A stretch of DNA of 39,241 nucleotides from Clostridia bacterium (GTDB taxonomy: Bacteria > Bacillota > Clostridia > Christensenellales > Aristaeellaceae). The notes beneath the pieces are model-generated. The model was given only the letters and a program-made list of their open reading frames with translations, was not told the origin of the DNA and searched no databases. The stretch spans positions 1 to 39,241 of the forward strand of contig JAGBDE010000021.1 of the NCBI GenBank assembly GCA_017937655.1, given 5' to 3'. Made by a program: the position numbers and the translations under genes. Of the stretch, positions 1 to 9,959 are shown in pieces (within the stretch, counting starts at the first letter, position 1; the number at the start of each line of letters is the position of its first letter).

Positions 1-138
1 ATTGCGTTCCCGACGGGCAGCCTCGCTGATCTGTTTGTGCAGCTCCTTGATGAGGGCATTCTTTTCGTCTCGTTCCCGCAGGGCTTTTGCTTCTGCGGCA
101 CGCAGTTCGTCTACAGTTTTGTTCTTTTTTCTGGTCAT
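1..138 (-). CDS. DUF3847-type mobilization-associated protein, N-terminal part
   Basis: This is a minus-strand frame beginning at an ATG at 138 and running off the left edge, so only 46 residues are visible. The visible protein is short-repeat, Lys/Arg/Glu/Ala-rich and predicted to be a helical coiled coil (opening MTRKKNKTVDELRAAEAKAL). It resembles the DUF3847 proteins found just upstream of MobA/MobL relaxases in Firmicutes mobile elements. A good ribosome site (AAAGGAT) precedes the ATG. If the usual order holds, a relaxase lies outside the window to the left. The replication-like gene and parB at 3.8-5.1 kb, on the same strand, fit one mobilizable element. The family call is from memory of its N-terminal pattern and is moderately secure; that it is a real gene is likely. 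Confidence 0.6.
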   Translation of the reverse strand, partial: MTRKKNKTVDELRAAEAKALRERDEKNALIKELHKQISEAARRERN

Positions 139-676
139 TGAGAAATCATCCTTTCTGATATTAAATTTGAGTAAAGTGCTTGCTGCACCCCTACCTTACA
201 CCAACGAAAAGCGAGGCTCAACCTTGTGGAAAAGCCCCCATTTACCCTTGACATCCCCCAAAATTTTCCCTTTGATTGATGGATTGATTGATATTCTTTC
301 CTTGATAGTAACGATTTCTTTTTCTTTTTTTATTGATATTAGTTTAGATCATCAGTAAATTATTTGCGGATGTCCGGCCTCCGGAGGGCGAACCAAGGAC
401 TGATTACCAGTCGATGGCCTGTCCGTTGTCTGCATGTCACACGACGGTTCCGTCAAGGGCTGAAAAGGCCATTTTTGTATGTGTATTTCCCCATGTTGGA
501 TTCACCAAACAAGGTGTTTTCAGCATTTTGTTGCGTTGGGGCCCTTTACCGAAATGTGGGACAACTTGTCCCGTATTTACATCAGCTTCTTTACGTGCCC
601 CGCCAATTCTGATGTGATACACATGGAAACAATCGGCTGTGGACGCATCGTCGCAGCCGTTCAGGAGGTAACGATT
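139..676. other. Non-coding stretch of the mobile element
   Basis: No convincing gene is seen on either strand across about 540 bases. The left half (230-360) is AT-rich with T-runs, unlike the GC-rich surroundings. It contains a short motif (212-225, AACC-TTGTGGAAAAGC type) that recurs in the loop of the terminator at 3775-3820. A 7-1-7 palindrome (GGGACAA-C-TTGTCCC) lies at 558-572, and smaller dyads lie near 390 and 445. A minus-strand frame is open from the panE antisense down to 437, but it has no good start or ribosome site. Upstream of the mobilization gene is where an oriT or a regulatory region would be expected; this is inference only. Confidence 0.4.
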
Positions 677-1689
677 ATGAGAAGTGCAATCTATGGCGCT
701 GGTTCCCTTGGTACGGTGCTGGGCGCATACATCACGAAAAACGGCGGCGAGATCGACCTGATCAATCGCAACCGCTCCCATGTGGAGGCACTGAACACCA
801 CGGGTGCGCACATCACCGGCACCGTGGACATGACCGTGCCGGTCAAGGCCATTACCCCCGACCAGATGAATGGCAAGTATGACGCCATCCTGCTGCTGAC
901 CAAGCAGCTGCAGAACGTTGAGGTCGTGACCATGCTCCGTGATTATCTGGCGGAGGACGGCGTGATCGTCACGCTGCAGAATGGCCTGCCGGAGCCTGGC
1001 ATCGCGGAGATCGTTGGTACCCACCGCACCATGGGCTGTGTGGTGGAATGGGGTGCGACGCTGGAATCCCCTGGCGTTGTTCGCCTGACTAGTGCGCCGG
1101 ACAGCCTCTCCTTCCACATGGGCCGCATGGAGGGCATCTCCGACGCTCAGTACAACGCCGTGAAGGCCCTGCTGGAGAAGATGTGCCCCGTGCATGAAGA
1201 ACCCAACCTGCTGGGTGCCCGTTGGTCGAAGCTGCTGATCAACGCCACCTTCTCCGGCCTGGGCACGGTGGTGGGCGGCACCTTCGGCGACGTGTCCGAG
1301 AACAAGGACGCCCAGAAGGTGGCCATCCGCTGCATGAAGGAGTGCATCGATGTGGGCCATGCTGCCGGCGTGACCTTCGCTCCCGTGCAGGGCAAGGACA
1401 TCACCAAGCTGTTCTACTACAAGGGTGCCATCAAGCGGGCCATCGGCATTCTGCTGCTGCCCATCGCCATGAAAAAGCACCGCGCCATCGAGCCTTCCAT
1501 GCTGCAGGACATCCGCAACGGCAAGCCCTGCGAGGTGGACGCCATCAACGGCGTGGTCTGCGCCTATGGCCGCAAGCTGGGCGTGCCACCCCCATCAACG
1601 ATAAGATCGTGAAGATCATCAAGAAGGAGCAAGCCGGCGAGCTGCCCCTGAAAGCCGGCAACATCCGCCTGTTTGATCAGCTGCTGTAA
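677..1689 (+). pseudogene. panE: Ketopantoate reductase family protein (panE-like), one apparent frameshift
   Basis: This is an NADPH-dependent 2-dehydropantoate 2-reductase family protein; PanE makes pantoate for coenzyme A. The start at 677 follows AGGAGG at 663-668. The N-terminus has the Rossmann glycine motif (YGAGSLGTVLGAY), then a core with KQLQNV and LQNGLPE and a C-terminal helical domain with the ARWSKLLIN segment. The first frame ends early at 1612 after GRKLGVPP. The +1 frame continues with the expected C-terminus (INDKIVKIIKK to FDQLL) to a stop at 1689. One lost C in the C-rich run near 1597-1603 explains this; restoring it gives about 337 residues, the usual family size. It may be a real mutation or a sequence error. 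The family also includes reductases of other 2-oxo acids, so the pantoate role is not certain. Confidence 0.8.
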
Positions 1690-1718
1690 GGCTGGATTGT
1701 TTAATCCCTGTATTTCGC

Positions 1719-1748
1719 TTGACAATCCTTTCACAAATATGGTATCGT
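1719..1748 (+). promoter_or_regulatory. Sigma-A type promoter of the riboswitch operon
   Basis: TTGACA at 1719-1724 and TATCGT at 1743-1748 are separated by 18 bases. Transcription would start near 1755, at the foot of the structured leader described next. Confidence 0.7.
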
Positions 1749-1752
1749 AAAT

Positions 1753-1849
1753 TGTACATTCCGTGAGGGAGTAGCGAGCGCCACTGGCGTAGCAAGTCAA
1801 CATCCTGGCTCCGGCCTGGCTTGCTTCAAATTGCGAGACTCATCGTACA
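1753..1849 (+). promoter_or_regulatory. yybP-ykoY family (Mn2+) riboswitch aptamer
   Basis: The leader folds into a closing stem made of TGTAC (1753-1757) with GTACA (1845-1849) and GTGAG (1763-1767) with CTCAT (1839-1843). Inside it are signatures I associate with the yybP-ykoY family: GGGAGTAGC directly after the 5' stem strand, a short hairpin (GCGCC-ACT-GGCG region, 1778-1789), GTCAACAT at 1796-1803 with a second arm (GCAAG/CTTGC), and GCGAGAC at 1833-1839 entering the 3' strand. It is followed by a strong terminator at 1891-1928, and GGGT (1867-1870) could pair with ACCC (1891-1894) to prevent it. Known members sense Mn2+ and turn genes on, usually exporters or TerC-like proteins. The assignment rests on motif order and was not confirmed with a covariance model. 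Confidence 0.72.
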
Positions 1850-1890
1850 GCTGAAAGGCTATGCGTGGGTCGAAGTGTGATCGTTTCATC

Positions 1891-1928
1891 ACCCGGGCAT
1901 GGCATTCAGCGCCGTGCCCGGGTTTTTG
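1891..1928 (+). terminator. Intrinsic terminator of the riboswitch expression platform
   Basis: ACCCGGGCA (1891-1899) pairs with TGCCCGGGT (1915-1923), with an inner GGC/GCC pair and a T-run at 1923-1927. It lies between the aptamer and the ribosome site of the next gene, so it can control the whole downstream operon. Confidence 0.85.
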
Positions 1929-1959
1929 TTATCCTCAAACGACCGTGAAAGGAGATCAA

Positions 1960-2415
1960 ATGAAACATCGGCTTGTCGTACGATCCGTCACCCTACCTGC
2001 AAACGTAAACACCCTTTGGCCGAAGCTCTCCATGCTCAGCACGTTGCAGCATATTGCCAGGCCCTATGCCACCTTCCAGCCAGTTGACCGCTCCGACGAT
2101 CTCAAATGGCAGCCGGGTGAAGTATACCGGTTCCGCTTTCAACTTTTCGGGGCGCTGCCCCTGGGCATCCACACCATCCGTGTGATGCGCTTCGACCAAG
2201 CCGCTGGCATCATCTACACAGAAGAATCCAATTCCCATGTGCCGGTGTGGAATCACAAGATCATCCTGAAGCCCATCAACCATAACCACACAGGATATAC
2301 GGACGAAGTGGAGATCCACGCAGGCCGGAAAACGCCTTTCGTGTGCCTGTGGGCCAAGCTGTTTTACGCTCATCGGCAAAGAAAATGGATCCGTCTGCTC
2401 CATGAACACAAATAA
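1960..2415 (+). CDS. SRPBCC-like (START-fold) ligand-binding protein
   Basis: This is a 151-residue soluble protein with no signal peptide or membrane segment. The start at 1960 follows AAAGGAG at 1948-1954. Its pattern suits the SRPBCC / polyketide-cyclase-like fold: an N-terminal strand (LVVRSVTLPA), an early helix with LQHIARPYATFQP, and repeated strands ending in the C-terminal helix (LWAKLFYAHRQRKW). Such proteins bind hydrophobic ligands in a deep pocket; no catalytic residues can be assigned. It is the first gene after the Mn-type riboswitch terminator and sits 15 bases before an ATC-hydrolase-like gene, so it is likely co-transcribed with the next two genes. Function is unknown; the fold call is moderate. 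Confidence 0.7.
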   Translation: MKHRLVVRSVTLPANVNTLWPKLSMLSTLQHIARPYATFQPVDRSDDLKWQPGEVYRFRFQLFGALPLGIHTIRVMRFDQAAGIIYTEESNSHVPVWNHKIILKPINHNHTGYTDEVEIHAGRKTPFVCLWAKLFYAHRQRKWIRLLHEHK

Positions 2416-2430
2416 AGGAGAGTACAAACG

Positions 2431-3050
2431 ATGAAAACCGTCACCCCCGAAGCCTGCAAAAAGATCTTCCTCCAGAAGCCCATCACGAAAAGCCTGTACA
2501 ATGGTTTTGTGGCTAACGGTTGGGAAGCCCACCTGCCTGCCGTGTATGACCGTGCTGATTCCCTGTTTGTGGACAATGCCTCTGCCAGCCCTGCCCTGCA
2601 GATGCACCTGAACCAGCTGCTGCCCATAATCGCCCTGTACGAAAAGGCGGTGGAGATCACCGGAAGCGTGGAAGGGGCTTTGGCCTTCACGGAAAATGGG
2701 CATTCATCGAAACGGAAAAGATGATGAAGTTCGCCCGGGGCCTGATGAAGCTGGGGCTTTACAAACTGATGCCCTCCCTGTGCGGCAAAATGCTGGACAG
2801 GATGTTCGGCGAAGCAGCCGGTTTTAAATACCGCCTTGTGCCGGATGCCCCGAAATTCGCGGTGGATATGCTGCACTGCCCCTACTTTGAAACCTGCAAG
2901 AAGTACGGCTGTCCGGAGCTGACCCAGTTTTCCTGCCGTACCGATGATATCACCTACGGCAACCTGCACAAAAATCTGGTCTGGGCCCGCACCCAGACCC
3001 TTGCCACCGGCGGCAGCTGCTGCGATTTCCGGCTGCACCTGAAAAAATGA
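2431..3050 (+). pseudogene. L-2-amino-thiazoline-4-carboxylate hydrolase-like protein, one apparent frameshift
   Basis: This is read as one gene of about 206 residues broken by a single-base loss near 2694-2700. The first frame, from ATG 2431 (ribosome site AAAGGAGAG), runs to about 2700 and then gives nonsense (GHSSKRKR). The next frame carries on with WAFIETEKMMKFARGLM and ends at 3050. The C-terminal half has the cysteine-rich signature of the ATC-hydrolase family: CPYFETCKKYGCPEL, then FSCRTDD, YGNLH and the final GGSCCDF. The founding family member opens the thiazoline ring in bacterial L-cysteine production from ATC; most homologues are of unknown role. It is the middle gene of the riboswitch operon. 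Whether the shift is biological or a read error cannot be told here. Confidence 0.72.
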
Positions 3051-3064
3051 TTGGAGGAGTACCC

Positions 3065-3757
3065 ATGGATACGAAAACATACGCCAATATCCGAAAACTG
3101 CTGATCATCGGCCTGATCGCCTCCATCGTTACGGTGCTGGGCGGCGAGCTGACCATCGGCTGGGTGGAATACCCCAGGGTGGAGAACGACCTCACCGGCA
3201 TGATGGGCATGATGCTGGGCAGTGCCAACCTGTCGCTGTGGCAGCTGGCCTGCGGCGTGCTCTTTGGCGGCATCGGCATCCCGCTGCAGTATTACGGCTT
3301 CAAGGCCACCGCGCAGCTGGTGGAAAAGGGCGGCAGCAAAAGGGCTGCGAAGCTCATCCATGTGGGTGCTGCGGCTACCGCAGGGCTGGGCGGCATCGTT
3401 CATGTGATCTGCATTGCGCTGATGTTCCTGTGCCGCATGGTGGACTTCTCCGCAGGCGGCATTCCTCAGCCGCTGTGGGACTTCACGCTATGGCTGGTGC
3501 TGCCCATCTGCCTGGTATTTATGCCCGTCTACTACGCCATGACCATCGCCCTGTTCGTGACGGTGGTTCGCGGCAAAACCTGCCTGCCCCGCTGGGCTGC
3601 GGTGTTCAATCCGCTGACGGGCACTCTGGTGATCAACGCCCTGCCCATGCTCCTGCCGGCCTCCAAGCTGGTCAATGCCCTGGGCATGGCCAACATGGGC
3701 ATTGGCTCGGTGCTGACCTTCGCCGACATCCTGGCTGTGATGAAGAAGCCTGAATAA
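3065..3757 (+). CDS. Polytopic membrane protein (DUF6796-like)
   Basis: This 230-residue integral membrane protein starts at the ATG at 3065, behind GGAGGAG, 14 bases after the previous gene. About six to seven hydrophobic segments can be seen: residues near 10-32, 55-80, 100-125, 140-165 and 185-225. The conserved-looking stretches SLWQLACGVLFGGIGIPLQYYG and FNPLTG are what I recall from DUF6796 proteins of Clostridia. No transporter signature, ATPase motif or enzyme motif is visible. As the last gene under a Mn-type riboswitch it is a candidate for the ion-related function in the operon, but that is inference. It is followed by a strong terminator. Confidence 0.7.
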   Translation: MDTKTYANIRKLLIIGLIASIVTVLGGELTIGWVEYPRVENDLTGMMGMMLGSANLSLWQLACGVLFGGIGIPLQYYGFKATAQLVEKGGSKRAAKLIHVGAAATAGLGGIVHVICIALMFLCRMVDFSAGGIPQPLWDFTLWLVLPICLVFMPVYYAMTIALFVTVVRGKTCLPRWAAVFNPLTGTLVINALPMLLPASKLVNALGMANMGIGSVLTFADILAVMKKPE

Positions 3758-3774
3758 CGCAACCGTAACGTAAA

Positions 3775-3820
3775 GGGAACCGGAGCTTAACCCCTGTGGA
3801 AAAGCTCCGGTTCCCTTTTT
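3775..3820. terminator. Intrinsic terminator between convergent genes
   Basis: A 14-bp perfect stem (GGGAACCGGAGCTT at 3775-3788 with its complement at 3802-3815) and T5 end the plus-strand riboswitch operon. The loop (AACCCCTGTGGAA) shares a motif with 212-225. The same hairpin may serve the minus-strand gene ending at 3838, though that side lacks a T-run. Confidence 0.88.
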
Positions 3821-3837
3821 GATTCGGTACGATTAGA

Positions 3838-4163
3838 TTATTCTTTCTTTGATGGTAGTAACATGGTCTCTTTCGGCATCTCGTAGATATTGTACTCCAC
3901 GTAGGATCTGCCGTTTGCACCAGTTTTGCGGATGCGTTCCAGATAGCCCTTACTTTCCAGTTCCCGCATGGTGGTGCGAATGGCATCGGGCCATCCGGCA
4001 TGATCTTGCTAAAACCTGCCACGGAGAACCGCCAGTTGGGCGGCAAGTCCATTAGGACGGTCATCAACCCCTTGGCACGCAGAGAAAGCTCCTTATTGCG
4101 GGTGGAGTGGTTGCTCATTCTCAGGAAGGACTTGTGGGGATCGTTGCTGCGATAGACAGGCAT
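3838..4163 (-). pseudogene. Replication-initiator-like winged-helix protein of the mobile element, frameshifted
   Basis: The start at 4163 (MPVYRSN) follows GGAAAGGAGC. The first frame gives the typical helix-turn-helix N-terminus of integrative-element replication or regulatory proteins (RNKELSLRAKGLMTVLMDLP, then FSVAGFSKIMPDG). After PDG it goes out of frame. The neighbouring frame continues DAIRTTMRELESKGYLERIR, then VEYNIYEMP and KKE, ending at TAA 3838-3840. One missing G near 3990 (GGCCCG-GATGCC expected) restores a protein of about 108 residues, the usual length. It lies 17 bases downstream of parB on the same strand, so the two form a replication/partition-like pair of the element. 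Either decay or a sequencing error is possible. Confidence 0.72.
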
Positions 4164-4180
4164 TGTGATGCTCCTTTCCA

Positions 4181-5101
4181 TTATCGTTCTTGTTGTTGAC
4201 GCTTGCGCTGCCAGGTATCCAGCAGGCGGAAAATGACGGCTTCCATCTGTTGGGGCGTGTAGGACTTGGGGAAATACTTGCGCAGGGCTTCGGTGGAGAA
4301 GGACAACTGCTCACGCTCCACCTTTTTCTCTTCGGACAGGATGGCGCTCATCACCGCCGGGGACAGCTTGTCCTCCTGACTGAACCGCTTCAGCCGCTGC
4401 GCCTGGGACAAGGACGGCGTAGCCTGTTCGCTTTCCATGGCATCCAGCAGCTGGGCTTGTTCCTCCTGCTTCAGGTAGGACAGCTCCACCGCCGGATTGA
4501 AGGCGATCTTCTTTGCGTCCACCATGTTCAGTAATTGGGGAATCAGGTAAGTCAGGCGGATGTAGCGATGCACTTGATTTCTGCTTTCGCCTGATTCCTG
4601 TCCAACAATATCAAGCGCCTGTAACTTCATCCCAACTTGGGATGAAGTTAGGTCAGACCTTTTCCCTTGTCGCCTCAAGGCCTCCAACTTCATCTTATAG
4701 GCAAAAGCCCTCTCACTGGGCAGGATATTCTCTCGCTGGATATTACTATCCACCATCACCAGCACAGCGGCATTATCGTCCATCTCCCGGACGATCACCG
4801 GCATGGTGTCCAGCTCTGCCAGTTCGCAGGCACGCTTGCGGCGGTGACCGGAGATCAGCTCATAGCCGCCATCAGGGCGTGAGCGTGCAATGGCTGGCAC
4901 CAGCACGCCATGCTCCTGTACGCTGCGGGTGGTATCCGCCATGCGGTCATCGTCCAGCACTTTGAAGGGATGATCATGAAACGGGTGGAGTTCGCTTAGT
5001 GGAATGTCCATCACCTTTTCCCGGCGCAAGTCCTGCCGCTGTTCTTCGGTAGAAAAGAGATCTTCGTAAGGTGTCAGTTGAATCTGTGTCCGTCTTTTCA
5101 T
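4181..5101 (-). CDS. parB: ParB/Spo0J-type partition protein of a mobile element
   Basis: This 306-residue DNA-binding protein starts at ATG 5101 behind AAAAGGAGA. The ParB N-terminal (sulfiredoxin-like) domain is clear: IPLSELHPFHDHPFKV, EHGVLVPAI, then the nucleotide-binding box ISGHRRKRACELA near residue 85-97 and VRE/NIQREN. A helix-turn-helix region follows (about 150-215), with KYFPKSYTPQQMEAVIF in the C-terminal part. It resembles ParB copies carried by Firmicutes conjugative and mobilizable elements more than chromosomal Spo0J. No parA is present beside it; sigK begins on the other side. A perfect palindrome about 100 bases upstream (5202-5220) could be its operator or parS-like site. 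Confidence 0.85.
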   Translation of the reverse strand: MKRRTQIQLTPYEDLFSTEEQRQDLRREKVMDIPLSELHPFHDHPFKVLDDDRMADTTRSVQEHGVLVPAIARSRPDGGYELISGHRRKRACELAELDTMPVIVREMDDNAAVLVMVDSNIQRENILPSERAFAYKMKLEALRRQGKRSDLTSSQVGMKLQALDIVGQESGESRNQVHRYIRLTYLIPQLLNMVDAKKIAFNPAVELSYLKQEEQAQLLDAMESEQATPSLSQAQRLKRFSQEDKLSPAVMSAILSEEKKVEREQLSFSTEALRKYFPKSYTPQQMEAVIFRLLDTWQRKRQQQER

Positions 5102-5201
5102 ATGCTTCTCCTTTTTGATGTTGTCCGAATCAAATGCCCTTTCGTTTGCTCGCTTTCCCTTATTTCGGGCATGATTTTAAGGGAATGTGGTTCTGTTCAC
5201 T

Positions 5202-5220
5202 TCTGTGCATTTTGCACAGA
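5202..5220. promoter_or_regulatory. Palindrome upstream of parB (possible ParB site/operator)
   Basis: TCTGTGCA-TTT-TGCACAGA is a perfect 8-3-8 inverted repeat. It is preceded by a half-site-like TTCTGTTCA at 5191-5199. It lies in the 5' region of parB, where an autoregulatory or partition site would be expected; function is inferred. Confidence 0.5.
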
Positions 5221-5279
5221 GGTTGTCCACCGGGTCAAAACGCCTGATGAATGGCCGCTTTTACTCAACAAAACACCAA

Positions 5280-5310
5280 TGCCCGAAGGCTTTCTTCCAG
5301 CCTTCGGGCA
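5280..5310. terminator. Strong hairpin between parB promoter region and sigK end
   Basis: A 12-bp perfect stem (TGCCCGAAGGCT, 5280-5291, with its complement 5299-5310) surrounds a 7-base loop. The T-rich tails are poor on both strands, so it may be a weak terminator or a structural boundary. It sits 21 bases past the truncated sigK stop, close to the inferred element junction. Confidence 0.6.
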
Positions 5311-5331
5311 TCGTTTACAGTAATGGCGGTG

Positions 5332-5967
5332 CTATACATAACTCCTGGATATCCCCAGCAGATCCGCTATTTCATGCTGGGGGTGCATTACGCCGTCGGA
5401 CAGGCCGTAGCGCATGCTGAGCACCAGCCGTTCCCGCTCCGGCAGGGCGGGCAGATGCCGCCGGACGCCGTCCAGGGTAATGCGCCGCCGCACTTCCTCC
5501 TCCACCAGATCCGGCGCGGTGCCCAGAAGATCGGCGAAGGAAATGGCGTTGCCGTCGTGGTCTGTGCCCAGAGGTTCGTTCAGGCTGATGTCCGCCTGCT
5601 GCTTCCGGCTTTGCCTGAGGCACATGAGGATCTCGTTCTCGATGCACCGGGCCGCGTAGGTGGACAGCGACGTGCCCGCCTCCCGCTTGTAGCTCTGCAC
5701 CGCCTTGATCAGCCCGATGGCCCCGATGGAGATCAGGTCGTCAAAGGTGCAGCCGGGAACCTTGTACTTCCGGGCGATGTGAACAATCAGCCGCATGTTG
5801 TGCTCAATCAGCTTCTGGCGGGCGTCCTCATCGCCCCGGGCCATGGCGTCCAGGGCGGCGGCCTCCTCGGCGGCGGTCAGGGGTTTCTGAAAATTCTGCC
5901 TGCCGGAGATGTACCCCAACAGCAGCAGGCAATCCTTGATGATCCAGGTCAATAATGCAGATATCAT
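5332..5967 (-). CDS. sigK: Sporulation sigma factor SigK, truncated at the C-terminus
   Basis: In spore formers SigK directs late mother-cell transcription. ATG 5967 follows AGGAGGGA at good spacing; a longer upstream frame lacks support. The short hydrophobic N-terminus (MISALLTWIIKDCLLLLGYI) resembles the pro-region of SigK. Region 2 (IEHNMRLIVHIARKY, DLISIGAIGLIKAV, YAARCIENEILM) is intact and diagnostic of SigK/SigE. Region 4.2 reads HEIADLLGISRSYV and then stops, where SigK normally continues SRIEKRA for some 20-25 residues. The product (211 residues) would lack most of the -35 recognition helix. A mobile element begins right after, so the gene was probably interrupted. Either it is dead, or its 3' end lies beyond the element, as in skin-type systems. 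Confidence 0.85.
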   Translation of the reverse strand: MISALLTWIIKDCLLLLGYISGRQNFQKPLTAAEEAAALDAMARGDEDARQKLIEHNMRLIVHIARKYKVPGCTFDDLISIGAIGLIKAVQSYKREAGTSLSTYAARCIENEILMCLRQSRKQQADISLNEPLGTDHDGNAISFADLLGTAPDLVEEEVRRRITLDGVRRHLPALPERERLVLSMRYGLSDGVMHPQHEIADLLGISRSYV

Positions 5968-8675: not shown

Positions 8676-9959
8676 ATGAAAGATACATACCTGCTGCCCA
8701 AGGATCTTGTGGCAAAAACGCCTCCCATGGGCTGGAACAGCTGGGACTGCTATGCCGCCACCGTCAATGAGGAACAGCTCATCGGCAACGCGGAATACAT
8801 GGCCAAATACCTCAAGGAATACGGCTGGGAGTACATCGTGTGCGATATCCAGTGGTCGGATCCCGTTGCCGGTTCCACGGACGTGACCTACATCAACTTT
8901 GCCAAGCTGAACCTGGACGAATACGGCCGGCAGATCCCCCCGGTGGAACGCTTCCCCTCCGCCGCGAATGGCGTGGGCTTCCGTTCCATCGCGGACCGCA
9001 TCCATGAAATGGGCCTGAAATTCGGCATTCACATCATGCGGGGCATCCCCCGGCAGGCCGTCCACGCACGGCTGCCTGTCCTGGGCACCAATACCACCGC
9101 TGACCGCATTGCAGATCCCTTCTCCGTCAGCCGCTGGAACGGCGATATGTACGGCGTTCTGAACACGCCGGAGGGCCAGGCCTACTACGACTCCATCTTC
9201 CGGCTGTACGCGGAATGGGGCGTGGATTTCGTCAAGGTGGACGACATCTGCAACACCAATATGTATCCCCACAACCCCTATTCCGCCGCCCACGAGGTGG
9301 AGATGATCGCCCGGGCCATCGAGCGGAGCGGCCGCCCCATGGTGCTGAGCCTCTCACCCGGCCCTGCCCAGATCGACAAGCAGTGGCACCTGACCCAGTA
9401 TGCCAACATGTGGCGCATCACCGACGATTTCTGGGACGACTGGCGGCTCTTGAAAGAAATGTTCTGGCGCTGCGAGGTCTGGTGCGGCCAGGGCCGGGAA
9501 GGCTGCTGGCCGGACTGCGACATGCTGCCCCTGGGCAAGCTGCGCATCGGCTTCCACGACCCGGGCATGACCCGCTTCACCAAGGAGGAACAGCGCACCG
9601 TCATGACCCTGTGGAGCATCTTCCGTTCGCCCCTGATCATGGGCGGCGAAATGCGTGAAAACGACGACTGGACCCTGAGCCTCCTCACCAACCGGGATGT
9701 GCTCCGGCTCATCGGCCACAGCCATCATGCCCGCCAGCTGCAGCGCACGGACAGCGCCGCTGCCTGGCACAGCTACGATGAGGACGGCAGCGAATATCTC
9801 GCCCTGTTCAACCTGAGCGATGAAGAGCAGGAAATCAGCGCAGAAATCGACTTTGGCGGCAAGGCCATCCGGGAACTCTGGGGCCGGGACGATCTGCTCA
9901 CCGGCGCAAACTCCGCCCGGATTCCCGCCCACGGCGCCATTCTGATCCACGCAAAATAA
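8676..9959 (+). CDS. Glycoside hydrolase family 27 (alpha-galactosidase or beta-L-arabinopyranosidase)
   Basis: This 427-residue cytoplasmic retaining glycosidase starts at ATG 8676, behind AAAGGAAGGG; no signal peptide. The clan-D (beta/alpha)8 barrel begins with TPPMGWNSWDCY (15-26). The nucleophile Asp is in FVKVDD (D189), the acid/base Asp in WRITDD (D250), and the conserved WPDCDMLPLG and FRSPLIMGG blocks follow. A short C-terminal beta domain ends in the expected manner. The substrate-loop position, often DDxW in alpha-galactosidases, reads CDIQW here, so beta-L-arabinopyranosidase activity is a serious alternative. It sits 24 bases before a GH51 arabinofuranosidase, suggesting intracellular breakdown of arabinose/galactose-bearing oligosaccharides. 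No transporter is adjacent. Confidence 0.9.
   Translation: MKDTYLLPKDLVAKTPPMGWNSWDCYAATVNEEQLIGNAEYMAKYLKEYGWEYIVCDIQWSDPVAGSTDVTYINFAKLNLDEYGRQIPPVERFPSAANGVGFRSIADRIHEMGLKFGIHIMRGIPRQAVHARLPVLGTNTTADRIADPFSVSRWNGDMYGVLNTPEGQAYYDSIFRLYAEWGVDFVKVDDICNTNMYPHNPYSAAHEVEMIARAIERSGRPMVLSLSPGPAQIDKQWHLTQYANMWRITDDFWDDWRLLKEMFWRCEVWCGQGREGCWPDCDMLPLGKLRIGFHDPGMTRFTKEEQRTVMTLWSIFRSPLIMGGEMRENDDWTLSLLTNRDVLRLIGHSHHARQLQRTDSAAAWHSYDEDGSEYLALFNLSDEEQEISAEIDFGGKAIRELWGRDDLLTGANSARIPAHGAILIHAK

Follow-up and report, generated by a model that had tools for sequence, protein, structure and literature searches.

A probable sigK-specific integrative element, seen by its left end, at codon 211 of the gene in a Clostridia bacterium

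The window, the whole contig C11 of 39,241 bp from a Clostridia bacterium (genome G000; assembly of 2.56 Mb in 57 contigs, 94% complete), probably carries the left end of an integrative element that is specific for sigK and whose large serine recombinase (LSR) would rejoin the gene, most likely in the sporulating mother cell. The sigK-side end seen here would belong to a family of elements whose LSR recognizes one sigK site, at codon 211 in the part encoding region 4.2. The end arms, which in relatives are inverted and share a core, would be joined to TATGT at the codons for SYV/SR, and with the element in place the cell would make a SigK lacking the end of its -35 reader. The LSR, probably together with a small protein encoded upstream as directionality factor, would act on both junctions, the element would leave as a circle, and sigK would come back in frame. 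The likeliest occasion would be the mother cell in sporulation, as in Bacillus subtilis and Clostridioides difficile. A new sigK-specific, non-prophage, skin-like family is the best-supported explanation, and ordinary disruption of the gene is less likely.

The interrupted sigK gene and the element end beside it

The features of the window are collected in Table 1. The sigK frame matches the SigK model TIGR02846 with 255 bits over positions 1-211 of 227, which does not reach the cut-off of 298.65, and is 75-85% identical to 15 orthologues of the genus. Its truncation at codon 211, with foreign DNA starting there, was confirmed: as the earlier note had read it, the gene stops after ISRSYV where the element begins, and ten relatives continue. 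The junction at the stop, TATGTATAG, is common to the window, to the genus members G012, G007 and G002, and to one genome of the class sample (L243). On the sigK side most window genes match a 179-kb stretch of G015, in which sigK is intact, and their order is kept over about 33 kb; past the cut, none of the ORFs matches it. Another check that had been proposed was for a second intact sigK. No other SigK was found in the G000 assembly, and the nearest paralogue, on contig C53, is best read as SigE (346.6 bits with PRK08301, cut-off 339, versus 250-254 bits as SigK); by the SigE model TIGR02835 it has 336 bits, below the cut-off of 348.6.

Table 1 Features of the window around the sigK cut
Feature	Position	Strand	Basis
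sigK 5' part, codons 1-211, ending in GISRSYV	5335..5967	minus	TIGR02846; orthologue identity
TAG stop from the element end	5332..5334	minus	sequence; directly after ISRSYV
Attachment core TATGTAT	5334..5340	minus	both G007 junctions carry TATGTAT
Attachment arm TACTGTAAACGAT	5310..5322	minus	pattern search, 17 genomes
Hairpin, terminator-like, at the element end	5281..5309		sequence
Palindrome TCTGTGCATTTTGCACAGA between parB and the element end	5202..5220		sequence
parB	4181..5101	minus	ParB_N 3.9e-19; TIGR00180 3e-26
Replication-type gene, frame shifted, two pieces	3837..4181 (end approximate)	minus	similarity to G012 protein
Element body up to the contig edge, off the contig at base 1	1..5333		G015 comparison

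Beyond the cut, the hairpin, the palindrome, parB and the replication-like gene that the earlier note had listed were all located, and both genes lie on the same strand as sigK. A similar hairpin stands beside the arm in G002 and G007, and on the opposite side in G012. The window ParB is 60% identical over 301 aa to the ParB of the sigK element in G012, and the two replication-type pieces align one after the other with that element's DUF6017/HTH_36 protein, at 37% (46 aa) and 50% (42 aa) identity. The label of a mobilization-type gene is unsupported, since Pfam gave nothing significant (best E 0.071) for the frame at the contig start, a 46-aa partial. Also on the element side, a ketopantoate reductase gene (479-1689) seemingly has its end in another frame, with the break at about 1590-1610 by eye.

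The contig breaks off within the element, in an assembly that is 94% complete, and the right end of the window's own copy would lie off the contig. G000 was searched for the sigK tail, both as an exact pattern and allowing two mismatches, for the tail protein (a search run without a positive control) and for the orthologous recombinase, and none of them was found. The gene downstream in the intact relative G015, rarA, is on contig C54 of G000 (6649 bp), where homology to G015 ends with rarA and no sigK tail appears before the contig end.

Junctions and sigK halves in relatives

The genus set comprised 17 genomes including G000, and sigK was found in 16 of them (absent from G004, which is 65% complete). 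The gene is cut at codon 211, with the same element-end motif, in six of the 16 (G000, G002, G006, G007, G012 and G013) and intact in the other ten, where it reads SYV-SRVEKH[AG]IEL. All six cut genes have GTAT[AC]GC at the cut and, 11 bases after GTAT, TA[TC]TGTAA[AG][CT]GAT; the shared cut codon and motif are not a matter of chance. When the arm pattern was searched for in the 17 genomes, 15 matches were obtained, nine of them exact and only at sigK halves, and six with one mismatch elsewhere. The reversed pattern, used as a control, gave three matches. A search of eight genomes for the sigK tail with up to two mismatches found it exactly in four of the six cut genomes (G006, G007, G012 and G013); there was no match in G000, and G002 had a two-mismatch match only and no clear tail.

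Both sigK halves of G007 lie on one contig and one strand, 6.94 kb apart. The left junction reads TATGTA/TAGCACC and the right one CGCTATGTA/TCCCGAGTAGAAAAG, and TATGTAT is present at both. The two arms are inverted, with the GT of TATGTAT at their centre of symmetry; arithmetic on these junctions predicts GT (5336-5337 in the window), the symmetry centre of both arms, as the crossover dinucleotide. Precise excision in G007 would, judging from the two junctions, restore the frame as SYV-SRVEKHGIELLREALEGKAALE. The right arms of G006 and G012 are of the G007 kind, and that of G013 is a variant. The 3' fragment of sigK and the recombinase predicted by the earlier note are present in relatives such as G007, and were not found in G000 itself. 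The larger proposal of that note, in which an element that carries ParB and is not a prophage splits sigK in the manner of skin but at another codon, is partly supported: some relatives have the two gene halves together with an LSR and ends that match, and for G000 neither the tail nor the orthologous LSR was found.

Several side observations concern the arrangement of these loci. Relative to sigK, the element body has two opposite orientations among the cut genomes, with the hairpin on the 5' side in G007, G002 and G000 and the recombinase there in G012, G006 and G013. The outermost arm bases keep their side in G007 and G012 (L048, L054, L049, L055; window 5281-5337), and the inversion breakpoint seems to lie within the inverted TATTGTAAACGAT arms. 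In G013 (C53, C47; L052, L050, L156-L158) and G006 (C63, C39) the sigK halves are on different contigs. Past the LSR, the 5'-side contigs of both look chromosomal by eye, and the tail contig of G013 carries spoIVA; the parting of the halves reflects either a rearrangement or wrong assembly. Beside the G013 tail stands, by eye, a NusG/LoaP-like gene (L050, about 9245-9844), after which many polysaccharide-type genes come in a row.

The large serine recombinase and the cargo

The LSR of G007 (534 aa) has Resolvase, Recombinase and zinc-ribbon domains and ends beside the sigK tail. In both G006 and G013 an orthologue with at least 69% identity stands at the sigK junction; in G012 the identity is 98% over 47 aa, the contig ending by the junction. 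Among the remaining cut genomes, the best match in G000 has 32% identity and G002 gave none. In an order sample of 396 genomes (E 1e-140 or better), the LSR was found in six genomes, and each of the six copies is next to a sigK half: the tail in G349, G213, G315, G084 and G121, and the N-terminal half in G168, whose sigK tail looks decayed. Four of these genomes have the two halves together on a single contig: G315 (6.3 kb apart), G121 (9.4 kb), G213 (35.7 kb, the contig start cutting the 5' half) and G084 (7.6 kb, the 5' half being 17 residues at the contig edge). For G213 and G315 the tail was recognized by eye. In G121 (L208/L216) the LSR frame continues into the sigK tail with no stop between them.

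In a class sample of 391 genomes (E 1e-130 or better), 19 had an LSR match. The best nine (at least 560 bits) are located at a sigK half, eight at the tail and one at the 5' half, and the ten weaker ones (at most 511 bits) have no sigK half within 1.5-kb flanks. The tail matches of this sample extend over a mere 17-26 residues (E 2e-5 to 0.015) and depend on the SRIE motif; that of L249 is on the other strand, before the LSR. A sigma-like match in L260 (E 5e-4) was considered as sigK and judged by eye to be unrelated. The LSR family occurs in several families and, by the class sample, in more than one order.

The sigK-adjacent LSRs form one clade with a support of 0.997 in a tree of 34 sequences (20 versus 14), rooted on one non-sigK LSR and built without SpoIVCA and CD1231, and without L258 (no single open frame), L146 and the partial G012 LSR. 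Eighteen of the 20 clade members are firm; the contig of IMG144 ends at the LSR stop codon and that of IMG145 has nine bases of the core and tail start. Identities among the twelve LSRs compared first range from 43% to 90%. The last bases of one IMG/VR contig (L145) are the arm and TATGTCTCC, the way a sigK tail would start; by eye, L144 and L145 have about four more serine-recombinase-like genes in a row before the sigK-type LSR. When the LSR profile was compared with solved structures, the best matches were TnpX (1.8e-36, positions 20-130), which we take to be the recombinase of Tn4451, and YokA (8.3e-29, positions 23-509); the likeness to TnpX and to SprA/YokA of SPbeta is one of recombinase profile. 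A search of IMG/VR for the attP junction gave one whole-site and 22 half-site matches; none of the 23 matches an LSR or a sigK half, and we judged them all to be chance.

The cargo differs among the elements. That of G012 encodes ParA, ParB, the DUF6017/HTH_36 protein and Fic; that of G006 encodes ParA-, ParB- and replication-type proteins (by sequence) and a DUF4143 ATPase; and that of G007 encodes DUF6602, HEPN_Swt1 and DUF5343 (PADLOC candidate PDC-M34), Fic and a tyrosine recombinase. Candidate defence genes in G007 (L048:6373-9546) comprise matches to PDC-M34 A and B, the DUF6602 protein with nuclease-model matches, and the Fic protein. Pfam, NCBIfam or PADLOC was applied to selected element proteins, and none of those tested is a phage structural protein; the window shows 5.3 kb of its element. 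ParA/ParB/DUF6017 modules were found in the family, and the word mobilizable, used in the earlier note, would lean on these; no relaxase appeared among the proteins tested.

Timing, rival explanations and known systems

The genus keeps spoIIID in 17 of 17 genomes and spoIVA in 16 of 17. We take both to be sigma-E genes, and 33 of their upstream regions share [GA]CATA[TG] before the ribosome site. A first matrix with fixed spacing, made from these 33 regions and applied to six LSR loci and 244 background regions, placed a site 190-205 nt before the LSR in five of the six loci, equalled by 0-2 of the 244 background regions; G007 had no such site (51 of 244 as high). On 15 sigK upstream regions the same matrix gave uneven results (2 to 79 of 244). 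In a second scan, which allowed freedom of spacing and covered 12 LSR loci and 322 background regions, a sigma-E-like site of varying strength was found at seven of the 12 loci (background out of 322: G006 0, G084 1, IMG145 6, IMG146 10, G013 13, IMG144 15, G349 19), with no promoter signal in G213, G315, G168, G121 and G007; the signal was weaker once the spacing was freed. In 11 of 12 loci the LSR has a small ORF before it (called at 41-77 aa), with a pattern resembling V.C.[YF]..E...SF..[FY] by eye, and the one tested had no Pfam match. By analogy with CD1234 and GirX, as described in passages of PMC5025042 and PMC5595907, it is a candidate directionality factor. We infer that the recombinase is active and that excision takes place during sporulation.

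Among the rival explanations, plain disruption survives best and is nonetheless unlikely; here an element prone to sigK inactivates the gene, and its carriers do not finish spores or tolerate the loss. It is opposed by the keeping of spoIIID and spoIVA in G000 and the five cut relatives, by the sigK specificity of the LSR clade beyond the genus, and by signs of constraint on the gene. Over the last 200 codons of the sigK 5' part, the median pN/pS of cut genes is as low as that of intact ones (0.195 in 15 pairs versus 0.244 in 45 pairs), and four orphan tails compared pairwise over their first 12 codons differ by 5-10 synonymous and 0-1 other changes. However, G007 and G012 share 95% identity at their element ends (166 bp) and 82% in the host sigK stretch (312 bp). 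The element therefore appears to have moved recently between hosts, which weakens the selection argument: with ends more alike than their hosts, conserved sigK halves are no proof of long maintenance, and low pN/pS was rejected as proof of upkeep because it cannot separate upkeep from recent arrival. This horizontal spread favours plain disruption, as do the missing recombinase and clear tail in G000 and G002, the decayed-looking tail of G168, and the five of 12 LSRs without a sigma-E-like site.

Quite unlikely, in our estimate, is low-frequency excision in growing cells without sporulation control, with sporulation ability a minority trait. The same five LSRs without a promoter-like site would fit it, and so would C. 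difficile, whose recombinase is constitutive and whose directionality factor alone is mother-cell specific, according to passages of PMC5025042. On the other side, sigma-E-like sites are well placed in G006 and G084 and weaker in four others, and they lie upstream of the alignment-conserved part of the small ORF. An assembly artefact, in which two unrelated sequences of a metagenome bin were wrongly fused at sigK, is very improbable: the 15 genus records (L102-L116) are all titled metagenome assemblies and the halves of G013 and G006 are on separate contigs, but the junction is base-identical in six genus genomes and one class-sample genome, and G007, G213, G315 and G121 each have both halves on one contig.

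The preferred reading, an element that leaves sigK by its own LSR, can be compared with several known systems. The skin of B. subtilis, whose recombinase SpoIVCA is under sigma-E in a passage of PMC4191935, likewise splits sigK and carries its own LSR, and a sigma-E-like site precedes part of the LSRs here; in contrast, skin is prophage-like and located at another sigK site than codon 211. The skinCd of C. difficile also splits sigK, with the LSR CD1231 and the small directionality factor CD1234 (in passages of PMC5025042), and resembles the present elements in its LSR at the element end and, here, a small ORF before the LSR. It differs as a degenerate prophage of 14 kb (so described in part of PMC4430133); its insertion site is different from that of B. 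subtilis skin in a passage of PMC5025042, and our separation of the present site from it uses IMG/VR cut codons, not the codon of skinCd itself. Serine-recombinase elements in sigK are also described for C. tetani and C. perfringens in passages of PMC5553647, where the C. tetani prophage has structural genes, unlike the element proteins tested here. Also comparable is gin in gerE of Bacillus cereus, a non-prophage element in a sporulation gene with the LSR GirC, the small factor GirX and several serine recombinases (passages of PMC5595907). There the target is gerE rather than sigK, whereas the present LSR family spans several families, and orders by the class sample. A passage of a 2013 paper places sigK insertion among Clostridia in C. 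difficile only (PMC3789822), and passages of other papers add C. tetani and C. perfringens (PMC3789829, PMC5553647). A search of the open-licence PMC literature found no codon-211 sigK element. The present element looks like a non-prophage, ParB-bearing, skin-like kind at a separate sigK site, unlike the known cases examined.

Developmental DNA rearrangement in spore formers has so far concerned mainly prophage-like elements in few cultured species. The present family adds a recombinase clade of its own that targets its own sigK codon in several families of gut bacteria, with cargo that may be small or large and that showed no phage structural gene among the proteins tested. It points to sigK as a site at which mobile DNA docks repeatedly, and offers testable junctions, recombinases and candidate directionality factors. 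A further idea, which we consider unlikely, is that an old, Clostridia-wide LSR clade is dedicated to one sigK codon, and that ParAB elements spread by way of the doomed mother cell, with sigK as both landing pad and timer. If true, sporulation-timed excision would both free a transferable non-phage circle and complete the sigma factor.

Other interruptions of sigK were also seen. In IMG/VR, 15 contigs were found that carry a 5' part of sigK, their prophage nature resting on their presence there. The sigK match ends at codon 140-148, after DPIG.DKEGNE, in 13 and at codons 112 and 122 in the remaining two; none ends at 211. We take the cuts near codon 112-122 to be of the B. subtilis type. In a scan of genome contigs (42 loci, 41 checked, L143 omitted), the sigK matches of L137 and L138 end earlier than codon 211, and five loci are cut at codon 211, all of them in this genus.
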